Notes under the pieces: generated by a model
What the model saw: the letters and a program-made list of their open reading frames with translations, nothing else
The model's database searches: none
What the model was told of the DNA's origin: nothing
Assembly (NCBI RefSeq): GCF_003583725.1
Contig: NZ_QXTF01000001.1
Span: forward strand, 248,001 to 312,000
DNA: 64,000 bases
Origin: Sphingomonas edaphi
GTDB lineage: Bacteria > Pseudomonadota > Alphaproteobacteria > Sphingomonadales > Sphingomonadaceae
Direction: 5' to 3'
Translations under genes and position numbers: made by a program
In this document: positions 1-3,789 of the stretch, piece by piece
How positions within the stretch are numbered: position 1 is the first letter of the stretch
Layout of the letters: each line of letters begins with the position of its first letter

Positions 1-330
1 ACGCTGAAGGGCTATGAGGCCGATATCGCCAAGCTTCAGGGGAAGCTGCGCGAGGCCCGGGCACGCCAGAATGCCATCGCGACCCGGATCGAGAGCGCTG
101 TGACCCGCGCCCGCACCCGCGAGATGCTGAACGGGGCACGGACGGAGGATGCATTTTCCCGTTTCGAACAGCTGGAGCGCCGGGCCGACTTCGCCGAAGG
201 GCGCGCGGATGCGCTGGGAATGACCGGGCCGAAAAGCCTGGAAGAGGAAATCGCCGAGCTCAAGGCGACCGACAAGGTCGACGCAGAGTTGGAAGCAATG
301 AAGGCCGCACTGAAGGCCAAGGGGGCATAA
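1..330 (+). CDS. pspA: Phage shock protein A (PspA/IM30), 3' part only
   Basis: Reading frame open from base 1 to a TAA at 328-330, giving the last 109 residues; the start lies outside the window. The visible part is charged, Ala/Glu/Arg-rich and almost entirely heptad-like, as expected for the PspA/Vipp1/IM30 coiled coil, with the typical segment SRFEQLERRADFAEGRADAL and an EEEIAELK tail. PspA is a peripheral inner-membrane protein that binds damaged membrane and, in enterobacteria, restrains the activator PspF. It is followed directly by pspB (GTG one base after its stop) and pspC, which supports the call strongly. Whether this organism regulates psp through PspF cannot be seen here. Confidence 0.93.
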   Translation, partial: TLKGYEADIAKLQGKLREARARQNAIATRIESAVTRARTREMLNGARTEDAFSRFEQLERRADFAEGRADALGMTGPKSLEEEIAELKATDKVDAELEAMKAALKAKGA

Positions 331-603
331 GTGGACGAAGTTTTTATTCCGTTGATCGCAATTGTTACGCTGTTCATCGGCCTCCCGTGGCTGGTGTTCC
401 ACTACATCACGCGCTGGAAGACCGCGGCCACGCTGACCGGATCGGACGAGAAACTGCTCGATGAACTGCACGACGCGGCCCGCCGGCTCGACGATCGGCT
501 GTGCACGATCGAGCGGATCATGACGGCCGAGAACCCCAACTGGCGCCAGCAATGCCTGCCGGAAACCAGCCGCCAGCGTCTCCTCCTGGAAGAAGAGAAG
601 TAA
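331..603 (+). CDS. pspB: Phage shock protein B
   Basis: A 90-residue protein starting with GTG immediately after the pspA stop, so the two are probably translationally coupled. Residues about 4-24 form one hydrophobic helix (FIPLIAIVTLFIGLPWLVF), followed by a basic stretch and an amphipathic zipper (KLLDELHDAARRLDDRL). This matches PspB: inner-membrane helix plus cytoplasmic coiled coil that works with PspC to sense envelope stress and recruit PspA. It is slightly longer than the roughly 75-residue enterobacterial protein. The C-terminal CTIERIMTAENPNW recurs in related form in the next four proteins of the operon. Confidence 0.93.
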   Translation: MDEVFIPLIAIVTLFIGLPWLVFHYITRWKTAATLTGSDEKLLDELHDAARRLDDRLCTIERIMTAENPNWRQQCLPETSRQRLLLEEEK

Positions 604-608
604 GAGCT

Positions 609-998
609 ATGCCCACGCAACCGCCAAGCCGCACGAAATTCTATCTCGACAAGCGTCACGGCAAGGTCATGGGCGTCTGCTCGGGGATTGCCGACTATAC
701 GGGCCTCGACGTCACCCTCGTCCGCATCATGGTCGTTGGCGCCGTCTTGATGAGCGGCGGCAGCGTGCTTCCGCTATACTTCGTCGCCGGCTTCATCGCC
801 GACGACAAGCCGCGCGAACTGGCGATCGAGGACCAGGAGCATCAACGTTTCTGGCAGGGCGTGCGCCAGTCGCCTGCCCGGACCGCTCGCGATATTCGCA
901 GCCGCATGCGCGACATCGATCGCCGTCTTGCCGACATCGAAAGCTATGTCACGACCGAAAACCGCAGCCTAGCCAGGGAAATTGAGCAGCTGCGCTAG
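609..998 (+). CDS. pspC: Phage shock protein C (PspC domain)
   Basis: 129 residues from the ATG at 609; an in-frame upstream extension to 501 would overlap pspB and is not used. Residues about 9-65 are a PspC domain (KRHGKVMGVCSGIADYTGL followed by a hydrophobic helix ending in LYFVAGFIADD). PspC is an inner-membrane sensor partner of PspB. The cytoplasmic tail is a long coiled coil, and its last 20 residues (ESYVTTENRSLAREIEQLR) resemble the tails of the downstream small proteins. It lies 5 bases after pspB and before three further one-helix proteins. Confidence 0.93.
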   Translation: MPTQPPSRTKFYLDKRHGKVMGVCSGIADYTGLDVTLVRIMVVGAVLMSGGSVLPLYFVAGFIADDKPRELAIEDQEHQRFWQGVRQSPARTARDIRSRMRDIDRRLADIESYVTTENRSLAREIEQLR

Positions 999-1018
999 AT
1001 AAGACGGGGGAAGTCATC

Positions 1019-1363
1019 ATGGATCCGGAAAAGCTGGAAACCTTTAGGTTCGTTGGAGAAATACTGCCCTACGTCGCGGTCATCGTGGCTGTCAGCGTCG
1101 GGGGCTGGGTCATGACAACCTGGCTCAGGATCAAGAATGGCTACCCGCTGGAAAATAGCTGGGGAAAGGCGCTCCACCCCCATACCGACCGGGAATCCCA
1201 GGAGCGGATCAAGCTGCTGACCACCGAGAACGCGCAGCTTCGCGCGGAGCTTGGCTCAGTCAAGGACCGGCTTGAAACGATTGAGCGGATCGTAACCGAT
1301 CAACCCTCGCGCCTCGCCCAGGAGATCGACCGGCTGGCGATGGACAAAGGAGGCCACGCCTGA
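1019..1363 (+). CDS. PspB-like small membrane protein, psp operon member 4
   Basis: 114 residues, ATG at 1019 after a GGGGAA-type ribosome site. One predicted transmembrane helix at about residues 13-35 (LPYVAVIVAVSVGGWVMTTW), then a charged segment and a heptad-rich tail (LLTTENAQLRAELGSVKDRL) ending in the motif ETIERIVTDQPSRLAQEIDR. The architecture is that of PspB (N-terminal anchor, cytoplasmic zipper), and the tail motif repeats that of PspB, PspC and the two next proteins. I infer a partner in the envelope-stress complex; no specific function is known to me. Its stop TGA overlaps the next start by one base. Confidence 0.8.
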   Translation: MDPEKLETFRFVGEILPYVAVIVAVSVGGWVMTTWLRIKNGYPLENSWGKALHPHTDRESQERIKLLTTENAQLRAELGSVKDRLETIERIVTDQPSRLAQEIDRLAMDKGGHA

Positions 1364-1644
1364 TGGGTCCGGGAGAAACCATTGCACTGCTAATCGTCGT
1401 CGGCATGCCGATGTTGATGATGATCATGTGGACGCGCAGTCACTTTCGCTACAAGGAAAAACAGCTGGAGGCTGAGACGTCGCTGGCTGCGGAAAAGGCC
1501 GCTCAATATGCCGCGTCGAACGCAGAGCTTGAAGCGCGGGTCAGAGTGCTGGAAAAGATCGTGACGGACGGCGGAATCGAAACCGCTGCCCAGATCGAGG
1601 CGCTGCGCACTCCCCGCCTCGCGCAAGGAGACAAGGTCCAGTGA
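1363..1644 (+). CDS. PspB-like small membrane protein, psp operon member 5
   Basis: 93 residues, ATG overlapping the previous stop (TGATG), so coupled translation is likely. A hydrophobic helix covers about residues 5-23 (TIALLIVVGMPMLMMIMW) with a possible periplasmic N-terminus. The rest is a coiled coil (KEKQLEAETSLAAEKAAQYA) ending in VLEKIVTDGGIETAAQIEAL, the same motif class as in its neighbours. Size and layout equal PspB. The next gene starts 4 bases before its stop. Function is inferred from context only: zipper partner in the Psp membrane stress system. Confidence 0.8.
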   Translation: MGPGETIALLIVVGMPMLMMIMWTRSHFRYKEKQLEAETSLAAEKAAQYAASNAELEARVRVLEKIVTDGGIETAAQIEALRTPRLAQGDKVQ

Positions 1645-1886
1645 ACCCCTTTGAAATGGTTGCGATCATCGTCGTGTCGGTAATGATCGCGACGGTACTG
1701 AAAGCGAAGTACAGCCACCGCAACCGCGATGACTCGGCCCGTGTTCCTCCCCAGGAACAGGCGGAAACGCTTCGCCTTCGAGACGAGGTCAAGCAACTAA
1801 AGGAGCGCATCCACGTGCTGGAGCGGATCGCGGTGGAGAAGGAAGACACGCTTTCCCGCCAAATCGAGCAGCTGCGCGACCGTTAG
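1641..1886 (+). CDS. PspB-like small membrane protein, psp operon member 6
   Basis: 81 residues from a GTG at 1641 that overlaps the upstream stop by 4 bases (GTGA). One transmembrane helix at about residues 4-21 (FEMVAIIVVSVMIATVLKA), a short polar linker, and a zipper (ETLRLRDEVKQLKERIHVL) that ends with ERIAVEKEDTLSRQIEQLR. This is the last gene before a 39-base gap and sufE. Of the three extra proteins it is closest in length to PspB. It could be a PspB paralogue or an independently acquired zipper protein; sequence alone does not decide. Confidence 0.8.
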   Translation: MNPFEMVAIIVVSVMIATVLKAKYSHRNRDDSARVPPQEQAETLRLRDEVKQLKERIHVLERIAVEKEDTLSRQIEQLRDR

Positions 1887-3333: not shown

Positions 3334-3395
3334 TCACTCTTACACCTAATGGTCGCGCTACCGCTTCGCCAGCGCTTCGAAAACTTAAAGTGCCA

Positions 3396-3772
3396 GGGGA
3401 CCTGTAAGCCGGGTTCTGTCCACCCCCGCGAACGCGGGGGATGGGCGACCATTCGTCTAGGACGGACGTTACCGACCGCCTCAAGCAACCAACCCGGGCG
3501 ACGAGCCGGAACAGGCCCATGTGCCACCCCTATTCGGTCTTGCTCCCGGTGGGGTTTGCCATGCCGCATACCGTTGCCGGCCGCGCGGTGCGCTCTTACC
3601 GCACCCTTTCGCCCTTACCTGCCCGAAGACAGGCGGAATTCTTTCTGTGGCACTTTCCCTGACCCCGGCTCTCGCCGAGGCCGCCGGGTGTTACCCGGCA
3701 CCGTTGTTCCGTGGAGCCCGGACTTTCCTCGCCCCCGCAACAAGTGCGGGGCCGCGGCCGCCCGGTCCCCTG
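3396..3772 (-). ncRNA. rnpB: RNase P RNA, bacterial class A
   Basis: Read on the minus strand, the 5' GGGGACC near 3764-3770 pairs with the 3' GGTCCCC at 3396-3402 to form helix P1. Just inside the 5' end is the conserved GAGGAAAGTCCGGGCTCC, and near the 3' end the conserved ACAGAACCCGGCTTA. Other hallmarks include GGTAAGAGCGCACCG and a GC-rich hairpin at about 3421-3434. The length of about 377 bases is right for an alphaproteobacterial class A catalytic RNA, which with RnpA trims tRNA 5' leaders. The 5' end lies only about 17 bases after the amidase stop codon, so its promoter would have to lie inside that gene, or the RNA is processed from a longer transcript. Confidence 0.96.
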
Positions 3773-3789
3773 ACAGTGCGGGATATGGG

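Follow-up and report, generated by a model that had tools for sequence, protein, structure and literature searches.

Tandem PspB-like membrane proteins with a two-part tail expand the phage shock protein operon in Sphingomonadaceae

Bacteria have relatives of ESCRT-III in PspA and Vipp1, and what guides PspA to damaged membrane is an open question. In enterobacteria, PspB and PspC are joined in a complex of the inner membrane. The phage shock protein (PSP) operon of Sphingomonas edaphi bears on this question: in the 64,000-nucleotide stretch of its genome analysed here (contig NZ_QXTF01000001.1, positions 248,001 to 312,000; hereafter the window), pspB and pspC are followed by three additional genes for small membrane proteins, here named O3, O4 and O5. 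What are these proteins, and what might they do for PspA? Here, we report that they belong to a tandem gene array by which the pspF-pspABC membrane-stress operon has expanded specifically in the Sphingomonadaceae lineage, and that their tails are related to those of PspC and, in part, PspB.

All five genes are on the forward strand. PspB (positions 331-603; 90 amino acids, one transmembrane (TM) helix) matched PF06667 (E=4.5e-25) and TIGR02976 (2.9e-24), both above cut-offs, and PspC (609-998; 129 amino acids) matched PF04024 (5.2e-16) and TIGR02978 (3.7e-37). They are followed by O3 (1019-1363), O4 (1363-1644) and O5 (1641-1886), each with one TM helix; profile matches and open reading frame (ORF) calls agreed with the original prediction on all five genes and their coordinates. 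None of O3, O4 and O5 passed a Pfam or NCBIfam curated cut-off. The PF06667 scores were 19.0 bits for O4 (E=0.0015) and 20.4 bits for O5 (5.5e-4) against a cut-off of 25.6, with no match for O3, and the best TIGR02976 score among the three was 24.6 against 51.7 (E=2.3e-5 for O5). O3, which represents a conserved family, had a weak match to the C-terminal part of the NCBIfam PspC model alone (E=0.0045). The PspC domain PF04024 was not found in O3-O5, whose likeness to PspC is limited to the C-terminal tail.

To see how widely such genes occur, we searched with an array profile (A1). This profile includes one PspB row and can pick up PspB or PspC tails, so only a best E value below 1e-10 was taken as a clear array. 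A1 matched 188 of 200 Sphingomonadaceae genomes and a clear array was present in 181, which bears out the earlier observation that the operon extends beyond one PspB and one PspC; the absence from close relatives that would have refuted it was not seen, and relatives of O4 occurred in 148 genomes. An oddity limited to the window was ruled out by these matches. PspB was found in 185 of the 200 genomes, and all 12 genomes lacking an A1 match also lacked PspB. Weaker A1 matches were observed in seven genomes (G024, G050, G076, G098, G118, G171 and G191), and the loci of all but G171 were inspected: one has pspABC without any array gene (L219), two have only a subfamily D gene (L220 and L225; subfamilies are defined below), one has a single subfamily C gene (L218) and two are cut at contig ends (L224 and L226). 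In the wider class, PspB was above cut-off in 42 of 385 genomes, and a strong A1 match outside Sphingomonadaceae came from only one genome (G380). A scan of named genomes with subfamily A returned 474 relatives; among the 80 matches listed, all were from sphingomonads or unassigned alphaproteobacterial metagenome-assembled genomes. With the array, names become available for small proteins, several hundred of them or more, which current family models miss.

The architecture of the array was examined in 99 loci selected for containing array genes, some of whose arrays are shortened by contig ends. One to nine genes directly follow pspC in these loci (mode five), and the array usually has three to six genes in Sphingomonadaceae. 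Similarity clustering gave four subfamilies, A (including O3), B (O4), C (O5) and D, the last of which is not in the window. The most frequent order is A-A-B-C-D; in the window it is A-B-C. D occupies the last place in 54 of 55 cases. The genes are tightly packed, 342 of 368 within-array junctions being no longer than 50 bp and 125 overlapping. Within the genus of the window we found A-B-C, A-B-B-C-C-C and B-C-A-A-C, and such varied composition implies frequent duplication and loss. In L218, L220, L227 and L228 the array consists of C alone, D alone or C-D, and this gene content by itself suggests that A and B may be later additions. A detached array was also observed (L118 4227-4709), in which two array-type genes lie about 80 kb from the pspBC genes of that genome, beside dut-like and coaBC-like genes named by eye.

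What unites these proteins is the tail. The original prediction held that PspB, PspC and the three extra proteins share one tail motif with the spacing R-x-x-[LI]-E, which had zero matches in the window; the true register is R-x-x-x-[LI]-E. With the register corrected, the core R-x3-[LIV]-E-[RKS]-[IY]-[VMA]-[TVA] matched exactly five times in the six frames of all 64 kb, once in each of pspB, pspC and O3-O5. Sharing of the whole tail did not hold for PspB, which has the core alone (RLCTIERIMT) and continues as ...ENPNWRQQ without the distal L-x-x-E-I-E-x-L-R. The C-terminal helix of PspC bears the full tail, RLADIESYVTTENRSLAREIEQLR, as do O4 and O5. Across the family, the distal half (T/S-D-x4-L-x-x-[EQ]-I-E-x-L-R) is common to PspC and subfamilies A-C and is not present in PspB, and subfamily D has the core only.

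We then compared tail profiles of PspB, PspC and the four subfamilies, built from about 100 sphingomonad loci, by hhalign, with a null of tails whose columns were shuffled inside heptad positions so that coiled-coil character was retained. The A, B and C tails matched each other with z scores of 13-17, PspC with z 6-8 over 32-41 columns and PspB with z 4-8, and in none of these comparisons did any of 60 shuffles score as high. The PspB and PspC tails compared directly gave z of only about 1.8-1.9, and at z 1.8 the score was matched or exceeded by 3 of 60 shuffles; this direct match is insignificant, and their tail link thus runs solely through the array. The expected similarity among the five tails was therefore recovered for array-array, array-PspC and array-PspB pairs and failed for PspB-PspC. 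When PspB and PspC from non-sphingomonad Alphaproteobacteria were used instead, the similarity persisted in weaker form (against that PspC set, z 6.6 for A, 3.3 for B and 2.9 for C, the last reached by 1 of 40 shuffles). In addition, when the full-length A-C profiles were aligned to PspB from other Alphaproteobacteria, the match spanned 57-61 columns and took in the TM helix (E 1e-6 to 1.5e-7). The pattern of z scores among PspB, PspC and the array subfamilies indicates, at the level of profiles, that the tail is built of two halves, with the core in all of these proteins and the distal half in PspC and A-C.

Chance coiled-coil similarity was ruled out by the heptad-preserving shuffles. A related explanation is convergence, in which similar heptads arose on unrelated small membrane proteins. 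It could account for the weak family matches, which include bZIP, ZapB and other coiled coils, and for PspB and PspC tails scoring within the shuffled null. We regard it as very improbable, since shuffles never reached the array-array, array-PspC and array-PspB scores of A-C (0/60), the core matches just five times across 64 kb read in six frames, and the best PDB chain against the array profile reached only E=0.008. The same PDB search found no array-like or PspB structure, that chain being the best overall.

By hydropathy, O3, O4 and O5 each have one strong N-terminal hydrophobic helix, and such a helix is present in 98% of array proteins. K/R residues are richer after the helix than before it in 466 of 475 array proteins, which by the positive-inside rule places the tails on the cytoplasmic face, as had been anticipated; O3 itself is even, with 2 K/R on either side of its best hydrophobic window. 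O3 also has an invariant juxtamembrane G-Y-P-L...W-G...P followed by a helix-kink-helix tail, and O4 contains an AEKAAQYAA segment. In the AlphaFold2 model of O3 (predicted local distance difference test 78, predicted template modelling score (pTM) 0.31), a TM helix (residues 3-39) is followed by a low-confidence linker (40-56) with the G-Y-P-L...W-G motif and a tail of two helices (57-94 and 96-111) interrupted at the conserved T-D. The C-terminal end of PspC was modelled as a single helix (89-128). Comparison with a same-genus genome gave ratios of nonsynonymous to synonymous substitution rates of 0.06 for PspC, 0.16 for PspB, 0.17 for O3, 0.38 for O4 and 0.12 for O5. The three extra genes are under purifying selection, and pseudogenes or spurious ORFs were ruled out by these ratios (0.06-0.38) together with conservation.

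What, then, might the array do? In enterobacteria, the C-terminal domain of PspC binds PspA in the on state of the system (PMC5596341), and a putative leucine zipper of PspC is required for PspA interaction and psp induction (PMC3068692). The array encodes tandem single-pass inner-membrane proteins with a PspB-like anchor and a cytoplasmic C-terminus. In their predicted tail, a T/S-D break separates a zipper-like helix from a second, short one; the tail is homologous to the PspC C-terminal domain over most of its length and to PspB in the core. Because these proteins carry homologs of the PspC C-terminal domain on single-pass anchors, we think it fairly probable that the extra tails bind PspA and/or the PspC tail and give PspA more places to dock at the membrane, perhaps through mixed complexes of the kind that the original prediction suggested, in which array proteins may stand in for PspB or PspC. 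They would be made together with PspA from one operon, and PspA is then likely to have several partners in the membrane rather than one or two. The anchors and the segments next to the membrane differ (subfamily A, for example, has GYPLE..WG), and these differences might suit different kinds of membrane damage or lipids. A bolder and rather doubtful extension is that the array forms a modular, fast-evolving PspA-docking platform, in which an interchangeable tail on diverse anchors, combined with PspB and PspC, would connect different lesions to one PspA effector, with copy number and subfamily content setting the range and strength of the response.

The PspB-like anchors (PF06667 E 5e-4 to 1.5e-3) also fit the main rival explanation, that the array proteins are mainly off-state locks which, as PspB does, sequester the PspC tail with their own tails and set the induction threshold instead of recruiting PspA. 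This seems to us unlikely, as the distal tail of the array matches PspC, the PspA-binding partner, and not PspB. Less likely still is that the array proteins are PspA-independent effectors that occupy or stabilise damaged membrane, as PspBC does with mislocalised secretins in Yersinia, and use their tails only for self-oligomerisation. PspB and PspC alone are able to stop secretin toxicity (PMC5596341), and conservation of the subfamily-specific juxtamembrane motifs, such as GYPLE..WG, is on a par with that of the tail, both of which would suit such a role; however, the array sits after pspABC and is missing from genomes without PspB.

Several observations weigh against additional PspA docking by the array. 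In Escherichia coli the contact between PspB and PspC involves the membrane helices and not the zipper (PMC3068692), so tail-to-tail mixing is just one option. The AlphaFold2 models are of single chains (pTM 0.31 and 0.52) and are uninformative on oligomers. A few members of the family have only pspABC (L219) or a single array gene in addition to pspABC, which implies that the system does not depend on the array. Finally, although the genome of the window has a sigma54 -24/-12-type site, TGGCACAAGCCCTGC, 54 bp upstream of pspA (TGGCAC-N5-CTGC, one mismatch to TGGCAC-N5-TTGC), many other sphingomonads have no recognisable sigma54-like site upstream of pspA, though pspF is present, and co-induction of the array with PspA is thus uncertain. 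Across the locus of the window (L003) and those of its close relatives (L039-L041 and L138-L150), sigma54-like -24/-12 sites were observed 52-67 bp upstream of pspA.

If additional docking by the array is the correct reading, a presumed docking tail has been multiplied three- to sixfold throughout a family, and its copy number, shifting even inside a genus, offers a natural experiment. The comparison also singles out the distal half of the tail, found in PspC and the array and not in PspB.

The rest of the locus follows the psp gene order pspF / pspA-pspB-pspC. The 3' end of pspA occupies positions 1-330 (+) of the window, and its start is on the contig before the window (L003 6663-7331); the ORF encodes 222 amino acids and matches PF04012 (E=1.1e-35 at G000:C1:247665-248309). 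The divergent pspF lies upstream of pspA on the reverse strand (L003 5454-6542), and pspF was beside pspA in every surveyed locus with enough upstream sequence. Downstream of O5 are a SufE-like and then a thioesterase-like ORF, both named by eye from sequence, and just beyond the psp/SufE region is a bacterial class A RNase P RNA (3389-3773, reverse strand; Rfam RF00010, 292.5 bits). Elsewhere in the same genome, a pspC-like gene comes after a second pspA, with neither pspB nor an array (G000:C2:197086-197727; L004 6970-8149). The PspC-like protein of this second locus (PF04024 5.9e-13) likewise has a related tail at its end, MMAIDHHLNSQNDELAREIEALREEK.

In the literature that we found, no paper mentions an array gene and none joins PspB, Sphingomonas and phage shock; sphingomonads do not appear in the main text of a 2022 survey (PMC9239133). 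In Zymomonas, a sphingomonad relative, ethanol induces pspABC (PMC3495753). A 2024 PSP survey describes some psp operons in which PspB is duplicated, as well as a PspC whose C-terminus is fused to a divergent PspB (PMC11237479), and because of these published cases the operon expansion is not wholly new. Like the array, they involve more than one PspB-like unit per operon and PspB-like sequence ending PspC; unlike our study, that survey gives one example accession each (cited example AOL22920.1), and its text has no sphingomonads, array size, subfamilies or family-wide conservation. Multiple PspB-like units have thus been published; as far as the literature examined shows, there is no earlier description of an array conserved across the family, of its four subfamilies or of a tail in two parts.

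Among known proteins, PspB of proteobacterial pspFABC operons (PF06667 / TIGR02976) is similar to the array proteins in its small size, N-terminal TM helix, cytoplasmic helical tail and operon, and array subfamilies A-C can be aligned by profile-profile comparison over most of its length. The array differs from PspB in that O3-O5 fall under the cut-offs, the distal tail is of the PspC type and missing in PspB, and subfamily A adds GYPLE..WG. Compared with PspC, the array has full tail homology (z 6-8) but a single TM anchor instead of PF04024. One further family (f14, L125 3454-4552) has a psp locus in which pspB, pspC-like, pspB-like and pspC genes alternate. A parallel is seen in another alphaproteobacterial family (f51; L120 4063-4552 and L121 5326-5814), where two single-TM genes directly follow pspC. 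These are only two genes, one with a PspC-type and one with a PspB-type tail, and the PspB-type protein passes the Pfam PspB cut-off; they apparently represent a separate expansion on the same theme.
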